From a virus, in IMG/VR virus record IMGVR_UViG_3300010354_000692, positions 1 to 23,090 of that record: a stretch of 23,090 nt of DNA. One strand, 5' to 3'. The notes under the pieces were generated by a model. That model was not told the origin of the DNA and made no database searches. It saw nothing but the letters and a program-made list of their open reading frames with translations. Each line of letters begins with the position of its first letter. Position 1 is the stretch's first letter. Made by a program: the position numbers and the translations under genes. Of this stretch, positions 7,031-23,090 are shown one piece after another.

Positions 7031-7468
7031 ATGTATAATAATAGGTTATATGATAATATTGTTTTAAAAGGTTCTAATAATCTACAAAGCATTCCAGGAT
7101 CTAAAACTTATAAAGGATTCAGTAGTGTAAGTTCAGAAGCAAATAGTTTTGCATTGTACGATCTAGCTTTAATTAAACAAGATATTTTGAATCATTTCAA
7201 TACACGACAAGGAGAAAGGTTAGAACAACCTGAATTTGGTACTATTATTTGGGATGTGCTATTCGAGCCTTTAACAACAGAGCTAAAAGATCTTATTAGG
7301 AAAAATGTAGAAACTATTGTTAATTATGATCCTAGAGTAATAGCCGACGAAGTTATAGTAACTAGTTACGAAAGCGGAATCCAAATCGAATGTGTGCTTA
7401 TATTTTTACCATACAATATTAGAGAATCTATACAATTACAATTTGATCAAGAAAATGGATTAATATAG
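7031..7468 (+). CDS. 25: Baseplate wedge subunit gp25
   Basis: A 145-residue member of the GPW/gp25 family (T4 gp25 has 132). gp25 is the most conserved wedge protein in contractile tails; with gp53 and gp6 it forms the inner wedge core and starts sheath assembly. The family signature is clear: IKQDILNHFNTRQGERLEQP then EFGTIIWDVLFEPL (about 48-82), including the conserved GER and the PEFG turn, followed by the helix LKDLIRKNVETIVNYDPRV and a terminal beta-strand region. The N-terminal 35 residues are variable. AAGGGG ends ten bases before the ATG and the gp5 stop is three bases upstream. It ends TAG at 7466-7468, followed by the only gap longer than a few bases inside the rightward unit. Confidence 0.95.
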   Translation: MYNNRLYDNIVLKGSNNLQSIPGSKTYKGFSSVSSEANSFALYDLALIKQDILNHFNTRQGERLEQPEFGTIIWDVLFEPLTTELKDLIRKNVETIVNYDPRVIADEVIVTSYESGIQIECVLIFLPYNIRESIQLQFDQENGLI

Positions 7469-7520: not shown

Positions 7521-10500
7521 ATGCCAGCAATAGATAGACAAAATAGATTACTAGCAGCAGAAGACTGGAAAAGAATTTATCAAAGTTTTAAAAATGCCGA
7601 TTTTCAAAGTTATGATTTTGAAAATCTACGTAGAGTAATGATAAATTATATCAGAGAAAATTATCCAGAAGATTTTAACGATTATATTGAATCTAGTGAA
7701 TATCTTGCTCTTATTGATGTCATCGCTTTTTTAGGACAAAGTATTAGTTTTAGAACAGATTTAAATTCTAGAGAAAATTTTTTAGAATTAGCTGAGCGTA
7801 GGGAAAGTGTATTAAGACTATCAAGATTGTTGGGCTATAATGCTAAAAGAAATATTAATGCAAGCGGTCTGCTAAGATTTAGTACAGTAAGCACCACTGA
7901 AAATGTGTTCGATTCTAACGGAAGAAATTTGTCTGGACAAATTATTGGCTGGAACGATCCTACGAATCTAAACTGGTTTGATCAATTTATTAAAGTTATC
8001 AACGCAGCATTGCCAGCGTCTAGACAATTCGGCAACCCTGATGACAAGGATGTTATAAACAACATTCCTACCGAGCAATATAGATTTCAAAGTGCCAATA
8101 CAGATGTACCAATTTATAGTTTTACTAAGTCTATTGACGGCAGAAACATGGTTTTTGAAATAGTTAGCTCTACATTTAAAAATTCATTGGACGTATATGA
8201 GGAACCGCCTAGTTTAGGTAATAGGATAGCATTTATATACCGAAATGACGGCAAGGGTAATGCCAGTGCTAATACAGGTTTTTTCATTTATTTTAAACAA
8301 GGAATTTTAAATCAAGGAACGTTCGATATCACACAACCTAGTACAAACGAAATTGTGGATATAGATGCTACAAATATAAATGATAGTGATGTTTGGTTAT
8401 ATAGATTAGATCAGAACGGTTTAGAATCGGAATATTGGCAAAAAGTACCAAGCTTAGAAGGTAATAATATCATCTATAACAGTTTATCGAAATCTGTCAG
8501 AAATATTTATAGTGTAACTACAAAGGCAGGTGACAGAGTTAGTTTAACATTTAGTGATGGTACTTTTGGAAATTTGCCTCTAGGCACCTTTAGAGCATAT
8601 TATAGAGTAAGTAACGGTTTATCTTATACAATAAATCCAAAAGATATTAGAAATGTTAATATTGATATTCCTTACATAAGTTCTTCAAATCAGTTAGAAA
8701 CTATTTCTATCTCTCTAAGTTTACAATCTAGTATAGATAATAGTAGTGAAACAGAAACTAATGATAGTATTAAAACAAATGCGCCAGCTACTTATTATAC
8801 TCAAAACAGAATGATTACTGCTGAAGATTATAATATCAGTCCTCTAAGTGTTAATCAAGAAGTAATAAAAGTAAAGTCAGTTAATAGAAGTTCTAGTGGT
8901 ATAAGTAGATATTTTGACTTAATTGATCCTACAGGAAAATACAGTAAAACTAATTTATTTGCTGATGATGGTGTAATCTATAATCAAGAATATACAGATA
9001 GTTTCAGATTCAGTTATCAAACACGTACAGATATTGAAGCAGTGATTTATAATCAAATTTCAGAATTACTTAAAACTGTACCTTTACGAGATTTTTATTA
9101 TAGTAAGTTTTTTAAAATTATAACAGATAGTTTAGATGTGAGTTGGTTTAGTAGAAGCTCAGAAACAAATCAATCTACCGGTTATATAGCAGATACTAGT
9201 ACAGGTGTAATTTATAAATTAGCCGAGTACACTTCAAATAGTTTACGGTACTTTACTGTAGGTACTCTTGCAAGGTTTATCTCAGGACCTGGTCGGTATT
9301 TTGATTTAGCAGACAATAATAAAATTAAAATAGGATCTGCAGGAGCTGCTAATACAGCCACTAGTTTATGGACTAAAGTTGTTAGTATTGCAGGAGACGG
9401 ATCAGCTAATAATACAGGAATATTAGTAGATGGTAGTGGACCAGTAATTTTAAATGATATAATTCCTCAAGGAGCTATATTAAGTACACTTATTCCTACA
9501 TTAAGATCTACAATAGAAGCAAGCACTATTTCTACTATGATAGACTTAATTTTTTCAAACAAACCATTTGGATTAAGATACGATATAGAAAATAGATCAT
9601 GGAAAATTGTTTTTGAATCAAATCTTAATACTGTAGATAACTTTAGTCTAGGTAAACAAGGAGATGTCAGTAATCAAAAATTAGATTCAAGTTGGTTAAT
9701 TTTGTTTACTACTGACACAGAATTTTATACAGTAAAAAGTAGACTTACGAGATACATCTTTGAAAGCGATTCACAAGTAAGATTTTATTATGATGCCAGC
9801 GACAAAGTATATGATACAAGAACAAATAGTACTGTGAAAGATAAAATAAAAATTTTAAGTATTAATACACAACCTAATTCTACTTTACCTTTCACTTATG
9901 ATAAGGATTGGGAGATCACTGAAGAATTTAAAGGATTAGATGGTTATGTGGATACAAAAAAAATACAAATTACATTCAGTGACACTGATGATGATAGTGT
10001 AGTAGATAATCCTGTATTGTTCGATGAAATAGTAGATGCTGCTAATACAACCTTACAAAATAAATTTATTATACAACAAAAATATGAGTTTGCAGAAGGA
10101 CAAGAAGATTACAAATATGTTTCTAATAGTGATCAAAAAGTTTTAATACTTGCGTCAGAATCAAATATTGGAAGTTTAGTTAACTATGCTGACGGTCAAT
10201 ATTTTTATTTTGATGATACAAAAACAGTGAAAAAATTAGACAAATCTACTAGTACTTTAAATGCAACTTTAGATTATAAATTATTCACAGGAAGAGATAA
10301 ATTAAAATTTCAATACACACATAATGCAGATTATGAGTCAAGGATTGACCCAGGCATTACAAATATAATAGACATTTATGTTTTAACAAGGAATTATGAT
10401 CAGATTTTTAGACAGTGGTTAAACGGGTCTATAAATGAAGAGCCGTTGCCTCTTAGTTCCGATAATTTGTATATCTTAATGAATCCAAAGTTGTCACAAA

Positions 10501-10976
10501 TAAAATCAATAAGTGATGAAATAATTTATCATCCGGTAAAATATAAAGTTTTATTCGGAGAAAAAGCTACGACTAATGTACAAGCTTTATTTAAAGTAGT
10601 CAAAAATACAGATATCGTAATAAGTGATAATGATGTCAAAGCAGGCGTACTTAGTGCTATTAATGAGTTTTTTGCTTTAGAAAATTGGGATTTTGGAGAT
10701 AATTTTTATTTTTCAGAATTAGCAACTTATGTAATGACACAATTAAGTCCTTATATTGTGAATTTTATTTTAGTGCCTAAACAATCAGATTTAAATTTTG
10801 GTGCATTATATGAAATAAGATCAGAAAAAGATCAAATTTTTATTAATGGTGCAGGTATTAATGATATTGAAATAATTAACACAATAACAGCTAGTAAATT
10901 AAAAGCTAGCGGAGCAATTTATGCTAGTCAAACAGTTACAGGACAGCAATCTATAACGAGTTCGGAGATTAATTAA
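7521..10976 (+). CDS. 6: Baseplate wedge protein gp6, enlarged (1151 residues)
   Basis: gp6 forms the ring that links the wedges and is central to sheath contraction. The N-terminus has the family pattern YDFENLRRVM, IESSEYLALIDVIAFLGQSI and SRENFLELAERRESVLRLSR with LLGYNAKR (31-110), parallel to T4's YDFEGSRLNVLCDLLAYNT and RTANLRSSVVQAAQDNGY. Residues 342-366 (LTFSDGTFGNLPLGTFRAYY) match the gp6/baseplate-J core, and 418-437 (TNAPATYYTQNRMITAEDYN) match T4's RETQQRCVTATDYD region. The C-terminal block holds DNDVKAGVLSAINEFFALEN and WDFGDNFYFSELATYVMTQL. T4 gp6 has 660 residues; most of the extra length is a Ser/Thr/Asp-rich beta-type insertion at about 530-940. The ribosome site is weak (GGGA). 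Its TAA shares one base with the next ATG. Confidence 0.9.
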   Translation: MPAIDRQNRLLAAEDWKRIYQSFKNADFQSYDFENLRRVMINYIRENYPEDFNDYIESSEYLALIDVIAFLGQSISFRTDLNSRENFLELAERRESVLRLSRLLGYNAKRNINASGLLRFSTVSTTENVFDSNGRNLSGQIIGWNDPTNLNWFDQFIKVINAALPASRQFGNPDDKDVINNIPTEQYRFQSANTDVPIYSFTKSIDGRNMVFEIVSSTFKNSLDVYEEPPSLGNRIAFIYRNDGKGNASANTGFFIYFKQGILNQGTFDITQPSTNEIVDIDATNINDSDVWLYRLDQNGLESEYWQKVPSLEGNNIIYNSLSKSVRNIYSVTTKAGDRVSLTFSDGTFGNLPLGTFRAYYRVSNGLSYTINPKDIRNVNIDIPYISSSNQLETISISLSLQSSIDNSSETETNDSIKTNAPATYYTQNRMITAEDYNISPLSVNQEVIKVKSVNRSSSGISRYFDLIDPTGKYSKTNLFADDGVIYNQEYTDSFRFSYQTRTDIEAVIYNQISELLKTVPLRDFYYSKFFKIITDSLDVSWFSRSSETNQSTGYIADTSTGVIYKLAEYTSNSLRYFTVGTLARFISGPGRYFDLADNNKIKIGSAGAANTATSLWTKVVSIAGDGSANNTGILVDGSGPVILNDIIPQGAILSTLIPTLRSTIEASTISTMIDLIFSNKPFGLRYDIENRSWKIVFESNLNTVDNFSLGKQGDVSNQKLDSSWLILFTTDTEFYTVKSRLTRYIFESDSQVRFYYDASDKVYDTRTNSTVKDKIKILSINTQPNSTLPFTYDKDWEITEEFKGLDGYVDTKKIQITFSDTDDDSVVDNPVLFDEIVDAANTTLQNKFIIQQKYEFAEGQEDYKYVSNSDQKVLILASESNIGSLVNYADGQYFYFDDTKTVKKLDKSTSTLNATLDYKLFTGRDKLKFQYTHNADYESRIDPGITNIIDIYVLTRNYDQIFRQWLNGSINEEPLPLSSDNLYILMNPKLSQIKSISDEIIYHPVKYKVLFGEKATTNVQALFKVVKNTDIVISDNDVKAGVLSAINEFFALENWDFGDNFYFSELATYVMTQLSPYIVNFILVPKQSDLNFGALYEIRSEKDQIFINGAGINDIEIINTITASKLKASGAIYASQTVTGQQSITSSEIN

Positions 10977-13900
10977 TGGCAGATCAAGAAGAACCTAATC
11001 TACCAATTGGTATTAATGAAGAAAGAAAAAGTGTTAATTTATTACCAAAATATTATAGGACTAATACTAATTCTAAGTTCTTAGATGCAACAGTAGATAA
11101 TCTGACACAACCTGGCACAGTTAAAAAACTAAATGGATTCATAGGAAGACAAAACGGTAAAGCTGTAAAAGCTTCTGATATTTTTGTTTCTGCGTCAGAT
11201 ACTTCACGACAAAATTATCAATTAGAACCTGCTGCTGTTATTAAAGATGAATTTGAAAATATTACATTTTTTAAAGACTACTTAGATTACATTAATCAAA
11301 TTAAGATTTTCGGCGGCAACGTAGATAATCATGAAAGATTAAATGAACAAGAATTCTATAGTTGGAATCCACAAATAAATTGGGATAAATTTGTTAATTT
11401 TCAAAACTATTATTGGTTACCTTACGGGCCCGATCCAATAAGTGTAGTAGGACAACAGCAGGAAATTATAAGCACATACACTGTAAATTTAGTCAATGAC
11501 GGAGATAATTTAGCATATGTAATGTCTCCTGATGGACTTACTAGAAACCCTACTATTACCTTATTTAGAGGACAAACATATAGATTTGAGATCAATAGTC
11601 CTGATAATCCTTTTAGTTTTAAAACTGCAAGAACAACAGATAATTTAAATCGATATTCAACAGGTATTTCTTCGAATTCAGTTTCTGTAGGAACTATCAC
11701 CTTTACAGTAAGTGTTAATGCTCCTGATGTAATTTTTTATTGTAGCGAAGCAGATGCAAATGCAGGAGGCGCAATACACATTTTAGACATAGAAGAAAAT
11801 ACATTTTTAAATGTAGAAACAGATATCATAGGAAAAAAATCATATTCTATTCCAACTAATAACATTAGCTTATCTAATGGAATGAAATTAAAGTTTGAAG
11901 GTAACGTAACTCCAGAAATTTACAGTGATGGTTATTGGTATGTCGAAGGTGTTGGTTCAGCAATTAGATTAATATCAGATCAAGATTTAGATATAATTTC
12001 ATCTTATAGCGAAGAAAAAGAATTATTATTTGATGATACAGCTTTTGATAAAGATCCTTTTAGCACAGCGAGTGCCTTTCCAATTAATAAAGATTATATA
12101 ACAATCAATCGTGCTAGCCCTGACAGGAATCCTTGGTCTAGATATAACAGATGGTTCCATCAAGATGTTATTATAGCATCCGCACAAAGTAGAAATCAAT
12201 TAGCAGAATTTGATCAATCGGCAAGAGCTAATAGATGTATAATAGAATTCGATGCAGGTTTAAAATTATTTAATTTTGGACACAAGGCTAAGAAAAATGT
12301 TAGTTTAATAGACACATTTACTACAGATATATTCTCTACAATTGAAGGATCATTAGGCTATAATGTAGATGGAATAGATTTAGTAGATGGTATGCGTGTT
12401 TTATTCATAGCAGATACAGATAGATTAGTTAAAAATAAAATTTTTAAAGTAAATTTTATAGAAGTAATTGTTCCATCTCGTCAAATAGAATTTGATGCTT
12501 CAATAGTTGATAAAGATAATAATATTTTAAATTTCAATAATGAACATGGTCTAACGTCAGGGCAGCAAGTATTTTATTTGAACAACGGAAATGCTAATAT
12601 TTCTGGATTACTTAATAGGAAATTATATTATGTTTCTGTTATTTCTGCAACAAAAATAAAATTATTTACAGATAAATTATTAACTTTTGAGGTTGATATA
12701 TTTGATATAGGTTCTGGACAACATAAAGTCGAGTTATTTCAAGGAAAACGTAGACAAATAAATCTTACAGAAGAGCCTGACATTGATCCTATCTTAAACG
12801 AGACTGTTTTAATAGAACAAGGATTACAAAATCAAGGACAAATGTATTATTATGATGGTGAAACTTGGAAATTAGGTCAAGTAAAGTCTACAGTTAATCA
12901 GCCTCCATTATTTGATATCTTTGATTCTGAAGGTAATAGTTTTGGTGATCTGTTGGTGTACGACAGTTCTACATTTAGCGGAACTAAATTATTTTCTTAT
13001 AAAATAGGAACAGGAAATGTTGATTCAGTTCTTGGGTTTGCTTTAAGTTATAAAAATATCAATAATATTGGGGATATTGTTTTTGACTTCAATATACTTA
13101 GTGATAGTTTTACCTATAAATCTTTGGCAGTAGTTAAAAGCTTAAAAATAGATATTGGTTTTTTAAAAGTAATTTCGGATCTTGATAACTTTAATTATAC
13201 TAACGGCTGGACGAAATGTCAAGTAGCTAATGTTCAACCTATAGTAAGAATTTTTAAAAATTCTAATTTAGTAAATGATTTTCCAGTTGATGTTTATGAT
13301 AATACCGATGATCTAAACGATTTGGATGTTAAAGTTCTTGTTAACGGAATAAGATTAAAAAAAGAAGATTATACTATACAAGATGGAGTTGTTAGAAAAT
13401 TTGTAAGGTTGAACACGGATGTAGGACTTGATGATGTCGTCACTCTAAGATGTTTTGCATCTCAAAATAAAAATGATAAAGGATATTATGAAATCCCAGT
13501 TAACTTACAAAATAACCCATTAAACAATGCTTTAGAGTCTTTTACTTTAGGTGAAGTGATCGATCATGTAGGAAGTATAGCAGATAACAATAATGAGTTC
13601 GTCGGCGAATTTCCAGGAAAAGGTAATTTAAGAGATTTATCAAATGTAAGTGGATATGGAACTAAATTTTTACAACATAGCGGACCTTTAAATTTATCTT
13701 TATATCATCTAACACAAAAAAGTTTTAATTTAATAAAGGCCTTAGAAAAATCAAGTTTAGATTACGGTAAGTTTAAAAGAGCTTTTTTAAGTGCAGCTTC
13801 TACAAGTGACATAACCACAGATACTAGACAGCATGTTGATTACATATTAGAAAAAATAACTAAAGATCAACCAAAATCTTTACCGTATTATTTGTCTGAT

Positions 13901-16900
13901 ATGTTTGCTTTTGTAGGATCAAACAGATATGAATTTGTAGTAAGAGATTCTAGAATTAAAATTTATCCTTTAACAACAAATTTTAATTTAGATAATCTTA
14001 GTAATAGAGCTGTTTATGTCTATCTAAATGATCAACATTTAATATATGAAAAGGACTATGAATTTGGAACAGAACCTTTTATAAACTTACTAATTGATTT
14101 AGCAGAAAATGACAAAGTACAAATATATGAATATGAAAGCACAGACGGAACTTTTTGCCCGCCAACACCATCTAAATTAGGGATTTACCCCAAGTATGAA
14201 CCTAAGAAATATATAGATAACACCTATCTTACTCCAACCGAAGTTATACAAGGACACGATGGAAGTATCACTATAGCCTTCGGAGATTATAGAGATGATA
14301 TGTTGTTAGAATTAGAAAAACGAATTTTTAACAACATTAAGATAAAATACGATTCTGATATTTTTAACATTTATGATTTTATTCCAGGGTATGAAAGAAG
14401 TATTTCATATTCTAAAGTAGAAGTAGACAATGTTATTGCATCACTGTTTTTCCAGTGGACTTCTAATATAAATCAAGACTATACAAAACAGCTTGAGTGG
14501 GATTCTGAGAATTCTTTTACTTTTAACTACAGAGATAATTATGCTCCTGACGGAACTGATGTTCCTGCATTTTGGAGAGGTATTTATAAGTGGTTTTTAG
14601 ATACAGATAGACCACATACTCATCCGTGGGAGTGCTTAGGTTTTACACTACAACCTAAGTGGTGGAATGAAGTTTACGGTCCAGCACCTTATACTAAAGA
14701 TAATTTAATTTTATGGGATGATTTACGTCAAGGTATTATTAGAGAGCCAGGAAAACCAATAACTATTAACACTCAGTTTGTAAGAAGTATTTTAACTGAA
14801 AGATGTCCTGTTGATGAAGAAGGAAATTTAATTTCACCTTTATCTTCTAATTTTGTTAGCGGTTATATAAAACCAACAGCAGAAGGTTATTATACATTCG
14901 GAGATCAGGGACCAGTTGAAACTGCTTGGCGACGTAGTAGCTATTATGCTTTTGCTCTAATTCAAACAGCACTATTATTAAAACCAAACAAAGTTTTAGC
15001 CACATGTTTAGACAGAAGTAGAGTTAATCGCAATCTCACCAACCAACTAGTTTATAGTCATACTAATCTTAGAATTAAATTAAAAGATATAATAATGCCA
15101 TCTACTGTAAAAAGTTCGGCTAGAATTTTTACTTCTGGATTAATTAATTACATTGTAGATTATGTTAATTCAGATATAACAAGTTTATTAGAAAATTATG
15201 TTTATGATTTACAAAATTTAAAAAATAATTTATCAAGTAAATTAGGAGGATTTACTACACAAAATAAATTTAAACTTTTATTAGACAGTAAATCTCCTAC
15301 TAGTGTAGGGGGTGTGTTTGTACCAACTGATAATTATAAAATTGCATTAAACACATCTAGTCCAATTAAAAAAATTACATACAGCGGCATAATTATTACA
15401 AAATTTGCGGACGGATTCGAGATAAGAGGTTACATTCAAACTCAACCGTACTTTGTTTATTTTCCTTATAGATTAACTGATAAGGTCATTCGAGTAGGAA
15501 GTATTTCAGAAAGCTTTGTATTATGGCAAACAGGAAAAAATTACATAGCCGGAAAAATTGTAAATTACAATGGCGAATACTATAGAGTTAAAACTAGTCA
15601 CGAAACTGATGAAAATTTTAATCCTGAGTTGTATGCTAAGTTATCAGGACTTCCCCAAACAGGCGGAAGAGAAGCAGTTTTAAGGAAAAATTGGGACACA
15701 AAAAATCCTCAAAAACTTACATACGGTACAAAATTTAGAACTATTCAAGAAGTAGTAGATTTTATTCAAGGTTATGGTGCTTATTTAGAATCAGAAGGAA
15801 TAATCTTAGAAGAATATAACGCCAATCTTAAAACAGTAATAAATTGGGAAACCAGTATTAAAGAATTTTTATTTTGGACAACACAAAATTGGGCTGAAGG
15901 ATCGGCAATAAGTTTAAGTCCAGCAGCAGATCTATTAACTCTTAAATTAGACAGATGTGTTGTTAATGATGTTAAAGATCCTTTTTACGGTTATAATATT
16001 TTTAAAGTAGATGGTTCCATATTAGATGATAGTTTTACTAATGTTTCTAGGAATGAAAGTAATTTTAATTTAAGACCGATTAACACAAATCAAGGAATAT
16101 ACGGAGCAGTTCTATATCTTGTTCAAAAAGAACATATATTGATTTTAGATAATACTACTTTGTTTAATGATGTTATATACGATGTAGAACCAGGTTACAG
16201 ACAGGAAAGAATTAAAGTTATAGGATACATTAGCTCAGCATGGAACGGAGGATTTAATGTTCCAGGATTCATTTTTGATAATGCAACTATTTCTAATTAC
16301 GAACCATACGTAGATTATAATTTAGGTGACATTGTAAAATATAAAGAATTTTATTATAGTGCTAAGTCTCGTATTACAGGATCGAGCGAATTCGTTTCTA
16401 AAGAATGGGTAAGACTAGATGAAAAACCAGTGGCAAAATTAATTCCTAATTGGGATTATAGAGCAGAACAATTTACAGATTTTTATGATTTAGATACAGA
16501 TAATTTTGATTCCGAACAACAAAGATTAGCACAACATTTAATTGGCTATCAAAATAGACAATATCTTGAAAATATTATTAAAGATGATGTTAGTCAGTAT
16601 AAATTTTATCAGGGAATGATAACAGAAAAGGGAACGCAAAATGTTCTTAGTAAGTTATTCGATGTTCTAAGTGCTGATGAGCAAGACAGTTTAACTTTTA
16701 ACGAGGAATGGGCTGTACGTGTAGGTGAGTATGGTGCCATAGATTCTTTTAATGAAATTGAATTAAAATTAGACGAGAAAGAATTTAAATTAAGTCCGCA
16801 GCCTGTAGAATTAGTTCAAATTAAAGATCCTTCAATAGTAGACTTCGTCTATAGACAAACACCATCAGATATCTATATTAAACCGGTAGGATATAATAAT

Positions 16901-19900
16901 AATCCATTTCCGACAAGTAACCAAGAAAAATATTTAAGATCCCCAGGATATGTAAGATATGAAGATGTTAAAATATATGCTGACAATTTACAAACAGCAA
17001 CACTTAATGGAGTCTCTTCATTTAACGAGGGAGATTATGTTTGGTGCGCTTTTGAAAATAAAGAATGGAATGTATACAGATTCACAAAAAATACATTCAT
17101 TCCTACTTTCATAGAATATGAGAATAATATATTAACCATAACTTGTGATAAAATTCCAGATATTAATATAGGCGATTTTATAGCTATAAAACAAACGTCA
17201 TCGTTAGATAATTTTTATACAATTAAAAATATTATAGGTAGAAAAATAATAATTGAAGCTGTTATCTCAGGATGGATTAATCCTTTTACTGAGTACAATA
17301 CTATTTTAACTTTTAAGTTTATTTCTAGTAGAATTGATAATATAGATAAAGCTAATGAACATCTGCCATCTAATATTAAAGAAAATGAACTATTATGGGT
17401 AGATAATAATGGGCTAGGACTTTTTACTACATATAAAAATAATAAAATCTTTGACAGAGAAGAATTTGATAACACAGGGGCTAGTCTAAATTATAAATTT
17501 GGCAATAAGGTTAGTATTACTAAAAATGGAAATATTGCAGCAGTTACAACTAATGATAATGTCTTAATTTTCAATAGATCAGGTAGAGGTTATTCTTGGC
17601 AGCAAATACAAACAATAACACCTAACACCGATATTGCTAGTGCTATCGAATTAAATTTTGGTGTGGAAACCGCCTTTAGCCCAGATGGAGAGTGGTTAGC
17701 CATCTCGGCCCCTACTGCAAGTTTTGTAAAGTCAAGGTGGGTAGGAGAATTTAACAGATTAAGCAGTTATTCACTCTCTGATATAGTTCAGGTCAAAAAT
17801 GTTCATTTTAGTGCAAAACAAGGATATACGTTTGTCAACGATGGTTCTTCTCTCTATGATGTTAATAAATTTAATCAAGATTGGGTTCCGGCATATTTAA
17901 TACCAACAGATATAAGCAAACCTGCAAGTGGATTGAATAGACAAGGATATGTTAACATTTACAAGAAGCAGTCGGGTAATAATAGATACATTTTTAATAG
18001 TAGTTTTGTAAGTCCTAATCCAACAGATAATGAAAAGTTTGGCAGTAAATTAGAATTTGCAAAGCAGGGAGAAGAATATGTTTTAGCCGTAAGTAGTTTA
18101 GGTTATAACAATAATCAAGGTAGAGTATATCTATTTAGATATGGAACGACAGAAACTGATAGTACTGTTAGTTTATGGCAAATGGATTATGACAGAAATT
18201 ATGTAGGACTTTATAATCCTTTAAATCAGTATTATGCCGGAGATATTGTATTTAGAGCACACTTATCTGTAACCGCAGGTTCTTTTGTAGTTGGAAAATC
18301 ATACATAATTGAAACTTTAGGCACTACTAACTTTACTCTCATAGGAGCCTCATCTAATACTATGGGCGATTTATTTGTTGCAACTGGTGTAGGAACTGGA
18401 ACAGGCACTGCTTATGAACCTGATTTGTATGATGAATTTTTATTTTATAGATGTTTAGCAGATCAAGATCCAGCACCAATGGAGACTAATTCCAGTGCAT
18501 GGGAAGTGATCGAAGATCCTAACGTATTAGGCTTTTTCCCTCAACAAATCCAAGATAATACAATTACTGATGCAAACCTTGATGTTTATCCGTCTACTAA
18601 TCAAAACGTAGAATCAGTGTTACAAGGAGATTTGTTTGGTTATGATGTGAGAATGTCTGAAGATGGATTAAAATTAATTATTTCAGCTCCTGCCGCAGAT
18701 CATGCTAACCATACAAATTATAAAGGAAGATTTAGAACTAATCAAAGATACGATGTAAATGATGTTGTTTACCATAACGGTTTTTATTATGCATATAAAA
18801 GATCGTTCGATAGTTCTCTTCCTAGTGCATTTGTTTCGGCCGATTGGAGATTGCTAGATTACGATATTTTTGATCCTAACAATGTGTACAATATTGGTGA
18901 TATTGTTTATTATAATAATTTTTTATGGAAGGCAAAAACAAAAATATATGGTGATGGTAGCACAATTAACTTAACTACACAAGACTGGGAAGTTCAGCCA
19001 AATCCTATTGATCCAAATACAGGAAAAGTTTTTGTATATGAGTATAACGGAGAATCATTTGTATTAGTAGATACGTTAGGATCTCAAAATCTAAAAATAA
19101 ACACTAAAGAACGATTTGGAGAATCTATAGCGATTTCTGCTACAGGTAATTACCTAGCAGTTAGTTCTATACTAACAGATGAAGCACAGTTAGATCAAGG
19201 CAGAGTTCTTGTTTTTGAATCAAGTACAAGTACTTTTTCTAAGATTCAAGATCTTTATAGCATTCAAAAAGAGCCAAGAGAAAAGTTTGGTATGTTTATA
19301 GATTTTATGAATGACGATCAAACCTTGGTTGTTTTTAGTGTTAACGGAGATGTATCTAATGAAACTATTTTTGATTCAAGAGAAACATATTTTGATAGTA
19401 AGACTCTAAAAATAGTGGATGTGCTTAAAGATACAGGTAGGATTGATATTTTTGATAGATATTATTCTACATTTATCTATGGAGAATCTTTAACTTCATC
19501 TGCAACTAATGATGTAAATGATAGTTATGGAAGAACTATTGCTGTAGGAAATAATACAGTGCTAGTAGGTGCACCAACAGATGATGATTATGAAGTAGAT
19601 GCAGGTAAAGTTTACAGTTATACAAAACCAAATAGATTGTGTTGGGAAGTAAAAGATGTTGAAAAACACATTGCCAGCGCCAATAAAATTAAAAAAGCTT
19701 TTTTATACAATAAAGTTAACAACAATATTGTAGCCTATTTAGATGTAATTGATCCTTTACAAGGTAAGATAGCCGGGATAGCCGATCAAGAATTAAGATA
19801 TAAAACATATTTTGATCCTGCTTTTTATTCAGTAGGCAATCAAACTGTAAATGTAGATACCGGATTAAATTGGACTTCATCACATAAGGGTATGTTATGG

Positions 19901-22900
19901 TGGGATTTAACAAGAGCTAAATTTTTAGAATTTTCGGGCGGTGATGTAATTTATAGAAGTACTACTTGGAATAAGTTATATGAATCAGCTAGCATAGATA
20001 TTTACGAATGGGTAGAAACAAAATATCTGCCTAGCGAGTGGGATTCTTTATCAGGAACGGAAGAAGGATTCGCTCAAAATATTACAGGAACTTCTAAATA
20101 CGGCAACAGTGTTTATAGTGTTAAACAAAAGTATGATTCTGCAAGTCAAAGTTTTACAAACACTTATTATTACTGGGTAAAGAATACTTCGATTATTCCT
20201 AATGTACAAGGAAGAAGTTTAAGTGCAATAGATGTTTCCAAATTAATTGCTGATCCTGTAGCATATGGATATCCTTGTTTAGCGTTTTTAGGTACAGATA
20301 GTTTTAATCTTGTCAACATTCAAAATTATTTAGAAAATAATGACATAGTCCTTTCGATACAATATTGGTTGGTAGATAATCAAACTCAAAATTATCACAG
20401 TCAATGGAAAATTATAAGCGAAAATGCAGGGACTTCTATTCCTTCTTTTATAGAAGCTAAATGGATCAATAGTCTTGTAGGTAAAGACGAAAAAAATAGA
20501 CTATTACCTAATTTAAAATTGCCAGGGAAAATACGTTATGGAATTGAAGACAGACCTAGGCAAAGTATGTTTATTAATAGAATAGAAGCAGTAAAAGAAA
20601 TTATAGAAAGAGTAAATCAAGTTTTAATTAAAGAATTAATTGTAGACGAATTTGATCTTACCGATTTAACTTTATCAGAACAATCGCCATCTATAATAAC
20701 AGGTAAATGGGATAAAGTAATAGATTTTGAAACCGAACTAAGATTTATAGGTATAGCTTTCTTAGAACAAGCAGTGCTTTCTCCAGTAATTGTAGATGGC
20801 AAAATAATTGATGCAGAAATTATAAATCCAGGGTACGGTTATATAAATGCACCGTATATAGATGTAAAAGGACGAGGAATAAATGCCAACTTAAAAACTG
20901 TTTTAGACGCAAATGGCAGAGTAATTGATGTAGAAATAATTGAAACAGGCGAAGGATATACTTCAGATACTACCTTTTTTGTTAGACCCTACAGAGTTTT
21001 AGTAACCAGTGACAGTTCTATTCAAGACAAATGGGCAATTTATTCTTGGAACAAACAAGACAAGATATGGGAACGAGTGCGCAATCAATCATATAATGTT
21101 AATAATTATTGGAATTATGTTGATTGGTATTTGGAGGGATACGATCAATATACTAAAATTGATAATGTAGTAGAGAATACTTATCAACTAGCATTTTTAC
21201 AAGACAATATAGGCTCTACAGTAAAAGTACAAAATGTAGGAACCGGAGGTTGGATATTATTAGAAAAATTCAATGATTCTATCACTATAGATTATACTCA
21301 AAATTATAAACTGATTGCAAGACAAAACGGAACTATACAGTTTAGTAAAACTTTGTATACTTTTAAAAATACAAATTTAGGATATGATGGTTCGTTACAC
21401 GACTCTAACATTTACGATTTAAGTGCATTAGAAGAATTGAGAATAATTCTTAACACTATTAAAAATAATATTTTAGTAGATAATTTACGACCTGAATATA
21501 TTAAATTATTTTTTGCATCTCTTCGATACGTGCTAAAAGAACAAATATATGTAGATTGGGCTTTTAAAACAAGTTTTGTAAAGGCAACACATCATGCCGG
21601 AGAATTAAAACAAAAAGTTAATTACAATAATGATAGCTTAGAAGATTTTGAAAATTATGTAAAGGAAGTTAAACCTTATAGAACAAAAGTAAGAGAATAT
21701 GTAAGTGCATATAATAAAGTCGACAATGCCAATCATGCAGTTACAGATTTTGATTTGATACCAGTTATAGATTCTAGTACAAAAATTTCGCCTGTTGATG
21801 TTAGATTAGATGATAATGGTGAGATTTTTAGTACCTATTCTGATATAGAAACTTATCCTTGGAAATTTTGGTATGATAATATTGGTTACAAAATTACTGA
21901 CTTAATTATTGTAGATGGAGGATCCGGGTATATTAGATCTCCATTAGTAAAAATAATTGGCGGTTTCGGAGTTGATGCAGAAGCTAAAGCTTATATAAGT
22001 AATGGTAAAGTTACACGTATAGAACTCATTAATAAAGGAAAAGGATATTTAAAAGCACCTACAGTTATAATAGATGGCGGTCTTAATGTAGGCGGTGTTC
22101 AAGCAAAAGTTGTTGCAGTTATTAATGAAGGGCTTGTGAGGTCTAATAAAATATCAATTAAATTTGATAGAATTACTAGATCATATTATGTTACAGAACT
22201 TGAGGCTTCGGCTCAGTTTACAGGAACAGGTAACAGATTACAATGGCCCTTACAATTCAGTCCTAGAAATATTAAAACAATAAAGAACGGAAATGTTTTG
22301 CCAAAAGTTACAATTAATAATGTAGATGTTTTAAGAAACAATTTTAAACTTTCTACAAAAACATCTACAAATAAGGGATATACAAGCTATTCTGGATTAA
22401 TTACATTTTTAGAAGCACCACCAGCTGGTTCTACAATATCTGTTACTTACGAAAAAGATTTTAATCATTTATCAGCTGCTGATAGAATAAACTTTTACTA
22501 TAATCCTGTAAAAGGTCAGTTAGGCAAAGATTTATCACAGTTAATGACAGGTATTGATTTTGGTGGTGTAAATATATCAGGGTTAGGGTTTGACGTTAGT
22601 AAGGGTTGGGATACTTTACCGTGGGTTGATGAAACATGGGACGGATTTGATGCAACGTTTAATGATGAAATAGTAAGGCTTAACGCAGATAGTTCACAGC
22701 AATATGAACATGAACTAGAATATATTCCTACAGTAGGTACTGAGATTAATGTTTATCTTAATGGACGTAGAATAGATGATCCATATTTTAATCTTTATGA
22801 TGGAATTACAGTACAACCAAATGGAAAACTAGTTGCCCCACAAGGTACGTACATGCAGACTTGGGTCGGTGATGGGGAAAATAACATTATTGTTCTGCCT

Positions 22901-23090
22901 AATTTAACTAGCAATCCTCCATTAAATTTAAATGAAGGCGATGTTTTAATTTTTAGAAAAAGCTCAAGTGACGGTAGTTTTGCCCCAGATCAAGATAGTT
23001 ATGATACTCAATTATCAGGTGGAAATTTATCTTATACTTCTGCTACTGGTTTTAGTCCCGACGACATAGTTTTAGATGGCGAAGGATTTA
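10976..23090 (+). CDS. Giant modular virion protein (at least 4038 residues, runs off the window) in the gp7 position
   Basis: A single open frame runs from the ATG at 10976 to the right edge without a stop: 4038 complete codons, end not seen. The start shares one base with the gp6 stop, and GGAG lies about nine bases upstream. It starts MADQEEPNLPIGINEERKSV and has no signal peptide. Visible modules are a conserved N-terminal block (residues 98-155), a cupredoxin-like fold (178-270), a long marine-phage core (about 640-1500), CBM5/12-like modules, a seven-repeat FG-GAP propeller (2175-2885), and GxGY repeats (3270-3339 and 3639-3717). The gene order gp25-gp6-X matches T4, where X is gp7 (1032 residues, peripheral wedge), but I see no direct residue similarity to T4 gp7. 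I infer a baseplate-peripheral structural and possibly surface-binding protein. Very large ORFs here are, from memory, known in marine T4-like phages; the exact domain mix is not checked. Confidence 0.93.
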   Translation, partial: MADQEEPNLPIGINEERKSVNLLPKYYRTNTNSKFLDATVDNLTQPGTVKKLNGFIGRQNGKAVKASDIFVSASDTSRQNYQLEPAAVIKDEFENITFFKDYLDYINQIKIFGGNVDNHERLNEQEFYSWNPQINWDKFVNFQNYYWLPYGPDPISVVGQQQEIISTYTVNLVNDGDNLAYVMSPDGLTRNPTITLFRGQTYRFEINSPDNPFSFKTARTTDNLNRYSTGISSNSVSVGTITFTVSVNAPDVIFYCSEADANAGGAIHILDIEENTFLNVETDIIGKKSYSIPTNNISLSNGMKLKFEGNVTPEIYSDGYWYVEGVGSAIRLISDQDLDIISSYSEEKELLFDDTAFDKDPFSTASAFPINKDYITINRASPDRNPWSRYNRWFHQDVIIASAQSRNQLAEFDQSARANRCIIEFDAGLKLFNFGHKAKKNVSLIDTFTTDIFSTIEGSLGYNVDGIDLVDGMRVLFIADTDRLVKNKIFKVNFIEVIVPSRQIEFDASIVDKDNNILNFNNEHGLTSGQQVFYLNNGNANISGLLNRKLYYVSVISATKIKLFTDKLLTFEVDIFDIGSGQHKVELFQGKRRQINLTEEPDIDPILNETVLIEQGLQNQGQMYYYDGETWKLGQVKSTVNQPPLFDIFDSEGNSFGDLLVYDSSTFSGTKLFSYKIGTGNVDSVLGFALSYKNINNIGDIVFDFNILSDSFTYKSLAVVKSLKIDIGFLKVISDLDNFNYTNGWTKCQVANVQPIVRIFKNSNLVNDFPVDVYDNTDDLNDLDVKVLVNGIRLKKEDYTIQDGVVRKFVRLNTDVGLDDVVTLRCFASQNKNDKGYYEIPVNLQNNPLNNALESFTLGEVIDHVGSIADNNNEFVGEFPGKGNLRDLSNVSGYGTKFLQHSGPLNLSLYHLTQKSFNLIKALEKSSLDYGKFKRAFLSAASTSDITTDTRQHVDYILEKITKDQPKSLPYYLSDMFAFVGSNRYEFVVRDSRIKIYPLTTNFNLDNLSNRAVYVYLNDQHLIYEKDYEFGTEPFINLLIDLAENDKVQIYEYESTDGTFCPPTPSKLGIYPKYEPKKYIDNTYLTPTEVIQGHDGSITIAFGDYRDDMLLELEKRIFNNIKIKYDSDIFNIYDFIPGYERSISYSKVEVDNVIASLFFQWTSNINQDYTKQLEWDSENSFTFNYRDNYAPDGTDVPAFWRGIYKWFLDTDRPHTHPWECLGFTLQPKWWNEVYGPAPYTKDNLILWDDLRQGIIREPGKPITINTQFVRSILTERCPVDEEGNLISPLSSNFVSGYIKPTAEGYYTFGDQGPVETAWRRSSYYAFALIQTALLLKPNKVLATCLDRSRVNRNLTNQLVYSHTNLRIKLKDIIMPSTVKSSARIFTSGLINYIVDYVNSDITSLLENYVYDLQNLKNNLSSKLGGFTTQNKFKLLLDSKSPTSVGGVFVPTDNYKIALNTSSPIKKITYSGIIITKFADGFEIRGYIQTQPYFVYFPYRLTDKVIRVGSISESFVLWQTGKNYIAGKIVNYNGEYYRVKTSHETDENFNPELYAKLSGLPQTGGREAVLRKNWDTKNPQKLTYGTKFRTIQEVVDFIQGYGAYLESEGIILEEYNANLKTVINWETSIKEFLFWTTQNWAEGSAISLSPAADLLTLKLDRCVVNDVKDPFYGYNIFKVDGSILDDSFTNVSRNESNFNLRPINTNQGIYGAVLYLVQKEHILILDNTTLFNDVIYDVEPGYRQERIKVIGYISSAWNGGFNVPGFIFDNATISNYEPYVDYNLGDIVKYKEFYYSAKSRITGSSEFVSKEWVRLDEKPVAKLIPNWDYRAEQFTDFYDLDTDNFDSEQQRLAQHLIGYQNRQYLENIIKDDVSQYKFYQGMITEKGTQNVLSKLFDVLSADEQDSLTFNEEWAVRVGEYGAIDSFNEIELKLDEKEFKLSPQPVELVQIKDPSIVDFVYRQTPSDIYIKPVGYNNNPFPTSNQEKYLRSPGYVRYEDVKIYADNLQTATLNGVSSFNEGDYVWCAFENKEWNVYRFTKNTFIPTFIEYENNILTITCDKIPDINIGDFIAIKQTSSLDNFYTIKNIIGRKIIIEAVISGWINPFTEYNTILTFKFISSRIDNIDKANEHLPSNIKENELLWVDNNGLGLFTTYKNNKIFDREEFDNTGASLNYKFGNKVSITKNGNIAAVTTNDNVLIFNRSGRGYSWQQIQTITPNTDIASAIELNFGVETAFSPDGEWLAISAPTASFVKSRWVGEFNRLSSYSLSDIVQVKNVHFSAKQGYTFVNDGSSLYDVNKFNQDWVPAYLIPTDISKPASGLNRQGYVNIYKKQSGNNRYIFNSSFVSPNPTDNEKFGSKLEFAKQGEEYVLAVSSLGYNNNQGRVYLFRYGTTETDSTVSLWQMDYDRNYVGLYNPLNQYYAGDIVFRAHLSVTAGSFVVGKSYIIETLGTTNFTLIGASSNTMGDLFVATGVGTGTGTAYEPDLYDEFLFYRCLADQDPAPMETNSSAWEVIEDPNVLGFFPQQIQDNTITDANLDVYPSTNQNVESVLQGDLFGYDVRMSEDGLKLIISAPAADHANHTNYKGRFRTNQRYDVNDVVYHNGFYYAYKRSFDSSLPSAFVSADWRLLDYDIFDPNNVYNIGDIVYYNNFLWKAKTKIYGDGSTINLTTQDWEVQPNPIDPNTGKVFVYEYNGESFVLVDTLGSQNLKINTKERFGESIAISATGNYLAVSSILTDEAQLDQGRVLVFESSTSTFSKIQDLYSIQKEPREKFGMFIDFMNDDQTLVVFSVNGDVSNETIFDSRETYFDSKTLKIVDVLKDTGRIDIFDRYYSTFIYGESLTSSATNDVNDSYGRTIAVGNNTVLVGAPTDDDYEVDAGKVYSYTKPNRLCWEVKDVEKHIASANKIKKAFLYNKVNNNIVAYLDVIDPLQGKIAGIADQELRYKTYFDPAFYSVGNQTVNVDTGLNWTSSHKGMLWWDLTRAKFLEFSGGDVIYRSTTWNKLYESASIDIYEWVETKYLPSEWDSLSGTEEGFAQNITGTSKYGNSVYSVKQKYDSASQSFTNTYYYWVKNTSIIPNVQGRSLSAIDVSKLIADPVAYGYPCLAFLGTDSFNLVNIQNYLENNDIVLSIQYWLVDNQTQNYHSQWKIISENAGTSIPSFIEAKWINSLVGKDEKNRLLPNLKLPGKIRYGIEDRPRQSMFINRIEAVKEIIERVNQVLIKELIVDEFDLTDLTLSEQSPSIITGKWDKVIDFETELRFIGIAFLEQAVLSPVIVDGKIIDAEIINPGYGYINAPYIDVKGRGINANLKTVLDANGRVIDVEIIETGEGYTSDTTFFVRPYRVLVTSDSSIQDKWAIYSWNKQDKIWERVRNQSYNVNNYWNYVDWYLEGYDQYTKIDNVVENTYQLAFLQDNIGSTVKVQNVGTGGWILLEKFNDSITIDYTQNYKLIARQNGTIQFSKTLYTFKNTNLGYDGSLHDSNIYDLSALEELRIILNTIKNNILVDNLRPEYIKLFFASLRYVLKEQIYVDWAFKTSFVKATHHAGELKQKVNYNNDSLEDFENYVKEVKPYRTKVREYVSAYNKVDNANHAVTDFDLIPVIDSSTKISPVDVRLDDNGEIFSTYSDIETYPWKFWYDNIGYKITDLIIVDGGSGYIRSPLVKIIGGFGVDAEAKAYISNGKVTRIELINKGKGYLKAPTVIIDGGLNVGGVQAKVVAVINEGLVRSNKISIKFDRITRSYYVTELEASAQFTGTGNRLQWPLQFSPRNIKTIKNGNVLPKVTINNVDVLRNNFKLSTKTSTNKGYTSYSGLITFLEAPPAGSTISVTYEKDFNHLSAADRINFYYNPVKGQLGKDLSQLMTGIDFGGVNISGLGFDVSKGWDTLPWVDETWDGFDATFNDEIVRLNADSSQQYEHELEYIPTVGTEINVYLNGRRIDDPYFNLYDGITVQPNGKLVAPQGTYMQTWVGDGENNIIVLPNLTSNPPLNLNEGDVLIFRKSSSDGSFAPDQDSYDTQLSGGNLSYTSATGFSPDDIVLDGEGF
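11267..11440 (+). other. Conserved N-terminal block of the giant protein
   Basis: Residues 98-155 are aromatic-rich: FFKDYLDYINQIKIFGGNVD, HERLNEQEFYSWNPQINWDK and FVNFQNYYWLPYGPDPI. The dense Trp/Tyr/Asn/Gly pattern suggests a folded docking segment, possibly the part that anchors the protein to the gp6 ring given that gp6 is encoded just upstream. The docking role is inference; the composition is seen directly. Confidence 0.5.
11505..11790 (+). other. Cupredoxin-like beta-sandwich domain with lost metal ligands
   Basis: Residues about 178-270 follow a plastocyanin-like pattern that recurs in marine phage structural proteins: NPTITLFRGQTYRFEINSPD, then NPFSFKT, then GTITFTVSVNAPDVIFYC and ADANAGGAIHILD. 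In metal-binding versions the first motif is HPF and the last is Y-Y-x-C-x-x-H-x-x-M-G-G. Here the first His is Asn211; in a gapless alignment the Cys position is Ser257 (Cys256 is one residue early), the second His is Asp and the Met is Ala. It is probably a structural sandwich that binds no copper. Confidence 0.6.
14430..15480 (+). other. Marine T4-type conserved core of the giant protein
   Basis: Residues about 1152-1500 contain FFQWTSNINQDYTKQLEWDS, PAFWRGIYKWFLDTDRPHTH, PWECLGFTLQPKWWNEVYGP then APYTKDNLILWDDL, GPVETAWRRSSYYAFALIQT, and LSSKLGGFTTQNKFKLLLDS. From memory these match large structural proteins of T4-like cyanophages and related marine phages; I cannot run the search. The segment has no catalytic signature that I recognise and is best read as virion-structural. 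Confidence 0.5.
15515..15650 (+). repeat. CBM5/12-like module 1
   Basis: Residues about 1514-1558 of the giant protein: LWQTGKNYIAGKIVNYNGEY followed by YRVKTSH. This fits the chitin-binding type 3 / CBM5/12 pattern W-x-x-G-x-x-Y-x-x-G-x-x-V-x-Y-x-G-x-x-Y-x-A/V. It carries the leading Trp (W1517), but the terminal Trp of the family is not obvious (AKLSG at that place), so it may be degenerate. Confidence 0.55.
16298..16429 (+). repeat. CBM5/12-like module 2
   Basis: Residues 1775-1818: YEPYVDYNLGDIVKYKEFYY, then SAKSRITGSS and the terminal EWVRLDE with W1811. The Y-x-x-G-D-I-V-x-Y core, the aromatic FYYSAK strand and the closing Trp follow the module pattern. The leading Trp is replaced by Tyr. 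Confidence 0.6.
17738..17893 (+). repeat. CBM5/12-like module 3, inserted in propeller blade 2
   Basis: Residues 2255-2306: WVGEFNRLSSYSLSDIVQVK, then the strand HFSAKQGYTF and the closing QDWVPA. W2255 and W2303 frame the module. It lies between the LAISAP strand and the GYVNIY strand of blade 2. The Gly of the usual GD is replaced by Ser (LSDIV). Confidence 0.55.
18197..18520 (+). repeat. CBM5/12-like module 4, split by a nested cassette, after blade 3
   Basis: Residues 2408-2515: the first half is LYNPLNQYYAGDIVFRAHLS and the second half is DEFLFYRCLADQDPAPMETN followed by SSAWEVIED with W2509. If the segment 2434-2480 is removed, the two halves read as one module (GDIVF then FYRC then W), so the nested cassette appears to sit in the loop between the two central strands. 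Confidence 0.6.
18275..18415 (+). repeat. Nested phage cassette (about 46 residues) inside CBM-like module 4
   Basis: Residues 2434-2480: AGSFVVGKSYIIETLGTTNF, TLIGASSNTMGDLFVATGVG, TGTGTA. This is the recurrent phage structural-protein motif of the type V-G-x-x-Y-x-I-x-x-x-G-T-T-x-F-T-x-I-G-A-S-x-N-x-x-G-x-x-F-x-A-T-G-x-G-x-G-T-G-T-A, familiar to me from many tail and fibre proteins. Its function is unknown to me. By a rough hand count it is slightly richer in G+C (about 38%) than its surroundings. Confidence 0.7.
18722..18862 (+). repeat. CBM5/12-like module 5, inserted in propeller blade 4
   Basis: Residues 2583-2629: RFRTNQRYDVNDVVYHNGFY then YAYKRSFDSS and the closing ADWRLLDYD with W2624. 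It follows the IISAP strand of blade 4, the same point of the blade as module 3 in blade 2. The Y-x-x-x-D-V-V-Y-x-x-G-F-Y-Y-A core is close to the family pattern. Confidence 0.65.
18860..19006 (+). repeat. CBM5/12-like module 6, tandem with module 5
   Basis: Residues about 2629-2677: FDPNNVYNIGDIVYYNNFLW, KAKTKIYGDGST and the closing QDWEVQPN with W2671. This is the cleanest match of the set (Y-x-x-G-D-I-V-Y-Y-x-x-x-x-W-x-A ... W). It directly follows module 5 and leads into the GKVFVYE closing strand of blade 4. Confidence 0.68.
20783..20990 (+). repeat. First pair of GxGY beta repeats
   Basis: Residues 3270-3339 hold two copies: VDGKIIDAEIINPGYGYINA with PYIDVKG, and ANGRVIDVEIIETGEGYTSD. 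The pattern G-x-[IV]-x-x-[AV]-x-I-x-x-x-G-x-G-Y-x-x-x-P is common in phage structural and fibre proteins and predicts short beta-strand units. Function unknown. Confidence 0.65.
21890..22126 (+). repeat. Second pair of GxGY beta repeats
   Basis: Residues 3639-3717 hold two further copies: ITDLIIVDGGSGYIRSPLVK with IIGGFGVDAEAKAYI, and NGKVTRIELINKGKGYLKAP with TVIIDGG and VQAKVVAVI. These are closer to the common phage form (GSGYxxxPxVxIxGG...AxAxA) than the first pair, which lies about 900 bases upstream. Confidence 0.7.

Follow-up and report, generated by a model that had tools for sequence, protein, structure and literature searches.

Seven FG-GAP repeats in a giant virion protein

The virus record IMGVR_UViG_3300010354_000692, all 23,090 bases of which were analysed and are here called the window, carries in its last gene a predicted seven-bladed FG-GAP propeller. 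Of the window's frames of at least 100 amino acids (aa), six are complete and one is open, and its genes run in the order late-transcription sigma factor (minus strand), two virion structural proteins, gp5-like hub/lysozyme, gp25-like protein, gp6-like protein and giant frame. The giant gene (10976–23089, on the plus strand like every feature located below) is an uninterrupted frame of 4,038 aa, open at its 3′ end, and encodes a giant virion structural protein of the jumbo-phage family phrog_10938 (phage virion structural protein; 1,060.8 bits, with the match running along the body of the protein). A blade profile with its null distributions, a structural model and fold matches place the propeller domain at aa ~2160–2895 (17453–19660).

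The initial annotation had read seven F/Y-G repeat starts in 17498–19630 (residues 2175–2885 of the giant protein), each paired with a closing strand resembling G-x-V-x-x-F. All seven starts were recovered, at residues 2175, 2228, 2355, 2554, 2714, 2771 and 2851 (six FG, one YG); three other F/Y-G pairs in the stretch, at 2389, 2658 and 2835, are not blade starts. The closing strands are likewise readable in all seven blades, but their glycine is present in only six, blade 1 having DNVLIF. Pfam FG-GAP_2 (PF14312) matches the full protein at 46.6 bits and an 801-aa piece at 55.9 bits, passing its cut-off of 23, and resolves three stretches, one of which is above the cut-off by itself. Because Pfam resolves only three of the seven, it was dropped as a stand-alone test for seven repeats and we built a family profile from 21 blades of the relatives L016, L017 and L019, scored on 48-residue pieces. 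This profile scores all seven sites at 26.2–38.5 bits, whereas the top score among 5,000 random 48-mers carrying a constant FG or YG was 13.1 bits (4,737 were reported by the program). Further pieces above this null, at V/L/Y-G pairs 2857, 2864, 2701, 2835 and 2375 (17.0–38.5 bits), overlap the named blades or their surroundings. Repeat by repeat, the FG-GAP assignment therefore holds in seven of seven by the family profile and in three of seven by Pfam.

A profile search of the whole protein returned ten pieces, including the seven blades at 15.5–32.2 bits and two short closing-strand pieces, 2320–2342 (4.7 bits) and 2681–2697 (3.5 bits), which sit 92 residues into blade 2 and 127 residues into blade 4, both split by inserts; the tenth piece, at −2.9 bits, is chance. 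With each blade's own type removed from training, six blades score 16.7–28.7 bits, values reached by none of 2,000 random sequences, and blade 6 scores 5.7 bits, reached by 15 of 2,000. By these sequence scores the blade count is not due to chance, but blade 6 is recognized mainly via its orthologues.

The blades are arranged as follows, with limits taken for blade 1 from the DSSP strand assignment of the model and for blades 2 to 4 from the model. Blade 1 occupies aa 2175–2214 (17498–17617; 26.2 bits), blade 2 aa 2228–2345 (17657–18010; 32.5 bits), with an insert between strands 2 and 3, and blade 3 aa 2355–2409 (18038–18202; 36.5 bits), its strand 4 having been placed by sequence pattern. 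Blade 4 covers aa 2554–2701 (18635–19078; 28.9 bits) and holds two inserts between strands 2 and 3. It is followed by blade 5 at aa 2714–2760 (19115–19255; 31.8 bits), blade 6 at aa 2771–2839 (19286–19492; 32.6 bits, weak without its own type) and blade 7 at aa 2851–2895 (19526–19660; 38.5 bits).

Predicted fold and likeness to integrin heads

AlphaFold2 modelled the window stretch (786 aa, 13 sequences) with a predicted template modelling score (pTM) of 0.72 and a mean predicted local distance difference test score (pLDDT) of 71.2, and the almost insert-free relative L017 (491 aa, 17 sequences) with a pTM of 0.81 and a pLDDT of 81.2; four strands per blade are readable in both models. The best fold match of the window model is integrin alphaM/beta2 7usm (Z 30.9, root-mean-square deviation (r.m.s.d.) 2.9, 352 residues), and its alignment with integrin heads spans model residues 18–753. 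Integrins make up 34 of the 50 fold matches listed for the window model, the rest being WD40-type and similar propellers. The best match of the L017 model is also an integrin head (Z 36.0, r.m.s.d. 3.0, 347 residues), Foldseek places integrin alpha4beta7 first for L017 at 1.0e-12, and the family sequence profile searched against the PDB returns integrin alpha-4 first, at 2.5e-6. The closed seven-blade ring proposed in the initial annotation is thus supported by models made with the inserts, on the window stretch, and almost without them, on L017, both of which give the integrin-head fold. It is very improbable that the repeats belong to another propeller class, WD40 or similar, with the FG pairs incidental: such propellers do match, in 16 of the 50 rows listed for the window model (best Ciao1, Z 29.1) and as G-beta chains from Foldseek rank 14 for L017, but integrin heads rank first for each model and take up all 50 rows listed for L017, integrin alpha-4 heads the sequence-profile search, and FG-GAP_2 lies above its Pfam cut-off with no WD40-like model above its own. 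On the strength of these models, residues ~2160–2895 very probably adopt a closed seven-bladed FG-GAP propeller with the fold of the integrin alpha head.

How far the likeness to integrins extends can be judged blade by blade. Integrin-type blades are described in PMC3192720, in the part devoted to them, as carrying FG, a proline and a glycine, with DxDxDG calcium loops in several blades (three or four such loops in integrins, one per repeat in bacterial cases). In the window, read by eye, a proline at the GAP/Cage position is present in three of seven blades (2, 4 and 7) and the following glycine in six of seven, and no DxDxDG loop is found in aa 2140–2925 with either the strict or the loose pattern. 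Among the relatives the loose pattern occurs zero to two times per region, in some cases within a DNNGNG anchor and once in blade 4 of L004. Pfam PF01839, which we take to be the FG-GAP model containing the calcium loop, scores 21.7 against a cut-off of 22.1 in L017 and is absent among the matches listed for the window. Because the proline is kept in three blades, the glycine in six and the calcium loop in none, the domain is an FG-GAP_2 propeller with an integrin-head fold and is not strictly integrin-type.

The two share seven four-stranded blades with FG in strand 1, a best fold match and the insertion of domains into loops, the integrin alphaI domain lying between blades 2 and 3 according to the account of that domain in PMC3192720. 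They differ in that the window propeller lacks DxDxDG loops and keeps the GAP proline in only three of seven blades, in that some of the phage inserts are CBM5/12-like whereas that of integrins is a von Willebrand A domain, and in that the window propeller makes up a single domain within a giant phage protein, with flanks that match jumbo-phage structural proteins. In a library of viral models the fold is common, being found in giant viruses, in S-TIM5, in an uncultured phage FG-GAP protein and in an Atu_ph07 protein called hemagglutinin; an FG-GAP propeller in a virus is therefore no novelty in itself.

Relatives and the inserts in their loops

Two IMG/VR scans yielded 45 loci, of which L005, L028, L033 and L038 were dropped for lack of one or both anchors; four of the remaining 41 entries were the same contig as another, and collapse at 93% identity left 26 relatives, 12 near and 14 far (the second clade, L031–L051). 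Seven blades are readable at one place in all 26, down to ~20% identity. Of the 91 blade starts aligned in the near set and the window, 78 are F/Y-G by strict letters, with nine of the 13 exceptions in L024–L026; in the far set seven blades were placed in 14 of 14 sequences, by eye on L043 and by alignment. A count below seven for the second clade was considered and rejected: the rows of blades 2 and 3 are shifted in alignment A3, but all 28 strands can be placed in the 14 sequences.

Within the giant protein the propeller was seen only in IMG/VR contigs, the longest of 349,369 and 317,493 bases. Matches to the first 2,108 residues of the giant protein occur in 67 of 50,697 phage records and to its C-terminal 1,130 residues in 71. 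The named jumbo-phage giant proteins of phrog_10938 (PA5oct gp355 and those of Atu_ph07, Phosso, SCTP-2, Vibrio 2.275.O and RaK2) are homologous in both flanks and share the wedge gene order, but differ in that the six examined are without FG-GAP blades: the blade profile finds nothing in any of them, Atu_ph07, Phosso and Vibrio 2.275.O having been scanned over a partial stretch that includes the propeller place. PA5oct, Atu_ph07 and Phosso align with the window protein up to residue 1942–1947 and again from 2854–2896, with no BLAST alignment between these flanks; by eye, PA5oct and Atu_ph07 have other sequence there. A tblastn search of the 50,697 records with the window propeller returned nothing at 1e-5, the other named relatives included; with an insert-poor relative as query it brought up other FG-GAP proteins, in 14 records, at 0.01, and with a second-clade query one short match, in one phage listed twice. 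The propeller is set at one fixed place, and both flanks occur in phages without it. A quick, midpoint-rooted tree of the C-terminal flank (aa 2896–3230, propeller excluded), with support from the Shimodaira–Hasegawa-like approximate likelihood-ratio test (SH-aLRT), separates the 27 propeller bearers from the six named non-bearers (96) and gathers the 14 far relatives into a single clade (100). A clade of the 13 near sequences lacks support (18), with L036 standing apart; the window groups with L004, L015–L017, L019 and L027 in a set of seven (100).

In an up-and-down four-stranded blade the 2–3 and 4–1 loops lie on one face and the 1–2 and 3–4 loops on the other; in integrins the 2–3/4–1 face is where ligands and the beta subunit attach. 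We called loops of at least 30 residues long, with strands taken from the DSSP assignment of the window model and the long strands of blade 6 trimmed. By this measure the window and its 12 near relatives have 36 long loops among 169 on the 2–3/4–1 face and 0 among 182 on the 1–2/3–4 face. The 36 comprise 12 blade-6 loops (in 12 of 13 sequences), 12 2–3 loops of blades 2 and 4, four loops between blades 1 and 2 and eight between blades 3 and 4. W2401–Y2409 was taken, by sequence pattern, as strand 4 of blade 3 (the model marks 2409–2412); placing this strand just before blade 4 instead switches eight long loops to the other face and leaves the 12 inserts in 2–3 loops unaffected. Several of the near-set inserts are CBM5/12-like.

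Turnover of the loops was followed in six pairs with the window, as identity over aligned residues in the shared N-terminal part, propeller strands, bottom loops and top loops with inserts in turn. These values are 63/62/47/41% for L004 (76% of the top loops aligning), 61/48/36/36% for L015 (47%), 59/54/29/37% for L016 (41%), 62/45/35/38% for L019 (44%), 46/31/23/35% for L022 (73%) and 37/25/32/34% for L048 (73%). Top loops with inserts are less conserved than strands in four of the six pairs, and bottom loops are as divergent as top loops or more so in L015, L016, L019, L022 and L048. L015–L017 and L019, which belong to the window's group of seven, are without most of the inserts. Judged from these alignments, gain and loss of inserts is a clearer signal than loop identity, and the seven-blade core persists as modules come and go in its loops.

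The window propeller itself holds four CBM5/12-like units. One lies in the 2–3 loop of blade 2 (aa 2258–2308; 17747–17899), recognized by a six-unit profile and the loop table and without a Pfam match alone. The insert between blades 3 and 4 (aa 2410–2553; 18203–18634) contains an interrupted unit, aa 2401–2514 giving no Pfam match, and this unit is split by a nested insert of ~49 residues (aa 2432–2480; 18269–18415) that is absent in L004 and L006–L008. Blade 4 carries a first unit at aa 2583–2627 (18722–18856; 13.0 bits) and a second at aa 2628–2676 (18857–19003; 24.0 bits), both under the cut-off of 26.2, the second absent in L004 and L006. Two further units lie in the protein body, a CBM5/12 unit at aa 1511–1556 (15506–15643; Pfam 32.7 bits, over the cut-off) and a CBM5/12-like one at aa 1769–1814 (16280–16417; 16.3 bits, under it). 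The six-unit profile, made from three propeller inserts, the two body units and one unit from L022, matches the chitinase CBM5 2rts at 6.2e-8, a match that may be carried by the body unit that passes Pfam alone. It also matches, more weakly (9.8e-5), All3316, presumably part of the contractile injection system of Anabaena.

Look-alikes of the nested ~49-residue module occur in L033 (68%), in L047 (47%) and in three phage records, where they lie in a stabilization protein, a virion structural protein and a b-glycanase; the module may be a small unit spreading between phage proteins. Pfam CBM5/12 is also listed below its cut-off for PA5oct, Atu_ph07 and Phosso and above it for L006, and in Vibrio phage 2.275.O the gene that immediately precedes the giant one is annotated CBM 5/12. 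The CBM5/12 module may thus have belonged to the giant-protein family for a long time.

The second clade is loaded differently. With strands placed by eye on L043 and not from a model, its 14 sequences have 42 long loops among 196 on the 1–2/3–4 face, these being the 3–4 loops of blades 3, 4 and 5 in all sequences, and 19 among 182 on the 2–3/4–1 face (14 blade-6 loops and five between blades 3 and 4). L043:6381–8003 is an example of such inserts. The three 3–4 inserts of L043 belong to no clear family: the best tail-fibre matches, at 0.0015 and 0.0025, fall in one insert, and another has none. The 4–1 insert of L043 between blades 3 and 4, present in five of 14 sequences, matches the tail-fibre family phrog_38233 at 1.5e-15 alone. 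We therefore rejected the idea that the 3–4 inserts of this clade are tail-fibre modules, since the L043 fibre match lies in the 4–1 insert and those of the 3–4 inserts are weak or absent. By eye, the blade-5 insert has a CBM5/12-like motif in some members.

Probable baseplate position and possible role

The giant gene stands directly behind a set of baseplate genes. A gp6-like wedge gene lies just upstream (7521–10976; phrog_10646, baseplate wedge subunit, whose product we take to correspond to T4 gp6), preceded by a gp25-like wedge gene (7031–7468; PF04965) and a gp5-like gene for baseplate hub and tail lysozyme (5057–7027; profile matches). PA5oct has the identical order of hub, gp25-like, gp6-like and giant gene, with all four products annotated as found by electrospray ionization tandem mass spectrometry (ESI-MS/MS), and a gp10-like gene lies three frames past its giant gene. 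Because of this gene order we infer that the giant protein belongs to the baseplate, and gene order together with the family makes it a candidate wedge component in the position of T4 gp7, by comparison with the T4 gene order. T4 gp7 itself is not matched by sequence profile, gene position alone being shared; an NCBIfam search returned nothing, and the PHROGs category of phrog_10938 is 'head and packaging'. A baseplate location of the propeller protein is, on gene order and family, probable. Photosystem D1 (PF00124), sought as a host hint, is present in 0 of 14 records, most of them possibly fragments, and for this reason no host is proposed.

Our best explanation for the whole, to which we assign a probability of about 0.6, is that the propeller would form a rigid ring or platform mounted in the baseplate wedge, from which modules carried on its loops would, in the window's group, extend to the host surface and make low-affinity, perhaps glycan, contacts with it. 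Taken separately, a host-contact role of the propeller is conceivable at somewhat short of even odds. The initial annotation had spoken of a ligand-binding platform; this stays an inference, because the analysis revealed no ligand site and the propeller has none of the calcium loops seen in integrin heads.

Several results weigh against this explanation besides the lack of calcium loops. An N-terminal profile of the giant protein (aa 3–1959, 14 rows) searched against known structures finds no baseplate chain, the four chains at E up to 1 all being chitin-related. In the window model the blade-2 insert is fairly good (pLDDT blocks 47–90) and the other inserts are poor (blocks 32–74). Compared singly with Pfam CBM5/12, none of the four propeller inserts reaches 26.2 bits (24.0, 13.0, none and none). 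The chitin surface of family 5, as set out in the relevant part of PMC8449059, consists of a neighbouring aromatic pair plus core Tyr and Trp. The window inserts keep the core Tyr and Trp, and the pair is absent in four of four (by eye, at the CjCBM5 spacing from the core Tyr); because of this absence chitin binding by these inserts is not expected from their sequences, and they may bind something else or nothing at all. In two of the six turnover pairs, the two most distant, top loops are at least as conserved as strands. Finally, because the long inserts of the second clade lie mostly on the 1–2/3–4 face, a fixed outer face cannot be general.

The main rival holds that the propeller is a structural hub within the virion, whose loops and modules dock tail fibres or wedge proteins while the fibres contact the host. 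Binding to other virion proteins is the normal task of a protein in this place, as with T4 gp7; a tail/collar-fibre-like gene lies two frames past the giant gene in the relative L008; and the one second-clade 4–1 insert matches phrog_38233. Inserts that come and go among relatives ~60% identical in their flanks would, however, be unexpected for a docking surface unless the partners change, and the 3–4 inserts match tail-fibre families at 0.0015–0.0025 only, in one of three. We regard docking as possible yet doubtful. The difference of loaded face between the lineages fits docking and a host-facing platform alike, and nothing separates these two readings. Less likely again is that propeller and inserts are passive bulk, tolerated in a family that accumulates domains and without a dedicated function. 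The absence of FG-GAP blades from the propeller place in all six named relatives, with other sequence in PA5oct and Atu_ph07, would suit such bulk, but it would not explain seven blades kept at one place in 26 of 26 relatives down to ~20% identity, and we consider it unlikely.

Returning to the host-facing platform, a bolder form can be offered only tentatively. The propeller might be an evolvable display ring, a seven-blade chassis in the wedge of one jumbo-phage branch whose loops would serve as landing sites for exchangeable host-contact modules, with the loaded face switched between groups: the window's group would load the 2–3/4–1 face, with several CBM5/12-like modules, and the second clade, with unrelated modules, the 3–4 loops of blades 3, 4 and 5. 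Such a ring would parallel, in phages, the acquisition of an alphaI domain by integrins.

Propellers have precedents in phage host recognition, among them phi11 gp45 and PhiKZ gp131C, as presented in the pertinent section of PMC4901313; PhiKZ is a jumbo phage (PMC13282480, a jumbo-phage review in which the word propeller does not occur). PhiKZ gp131C (PDB 4GBF) resembles the present case, according to that section of PMC4901313, in coming from a large myophage and in having seven blades, a place at the baseplate rim and a suspected but unproven role in receptor binding. Its propeller is C-terminal, whereas that of the window lies mid-protein in more than 4,000 aa, and 4GBF is not among the fold and profile matches listed, a shared fold class still being possible. 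Staphylococcus phage phi11 gp45 likewise uses a propeller as platform of a baseplate receptor-binding protein, but it has five blades, a homotrimeric build and a coiled-coil stem, and FG-GAP goes unmentioned in the sections of PMC4901313 and PMC7048315 that describe it. Contractile injection system fibres also have propellers, not FG-GAP in the portion of PMC12923769 concerned. Other phage FG-GAP proteins (S-TIM5 gp054, the S-MbCM6 21-kb gene, Phosso XYS97267 and UFOVP1367_22) share FG-GAP blades, and two of the four are annotated as virion structural. They differ in being matched through the propeller alone, and their annotated neighbours are not wedge genes (for S-MbCM6 only the gene itself was seen). 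Jumbo-phage baseplates were thus already known to bear seven-bladed propellers, and viruses to encode FG-GAP ones; our searches of the open-access literature brought up no account of a propeller in this giant protein with group- and face-specific loop modules.

Most of the machinery with which uncultivated jumbo phages recognize their hosts has yet to be identified, and the propeller is a testable candidate for a site that touches the host. Its relatives form a natural series for surface diversification, from almost insert-free rings to rings loaded on one face or mostly on the other, and they add a phage case to the occurrence of integrin-like heads outside animals.

Elsewhere, the blade profile finds 22 blades in Phosso XYS97267 (L052; part scanned), five in the S-MbCM6 21-kb gene (L054; part scanned) and six in S-TIM5 gp054 (L053); XYS97267, a hypothetical protein, may hold several tandem propellers. 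Further downstream in the giant protein of the window, repeated 'GxGY' modules can be read by eye at 20783–22081 (aa ~3270–3702), and aa 3639–3702 match phrog_22827, with similar copies elsewhere in Atu_ph07 and Phosso proteins.

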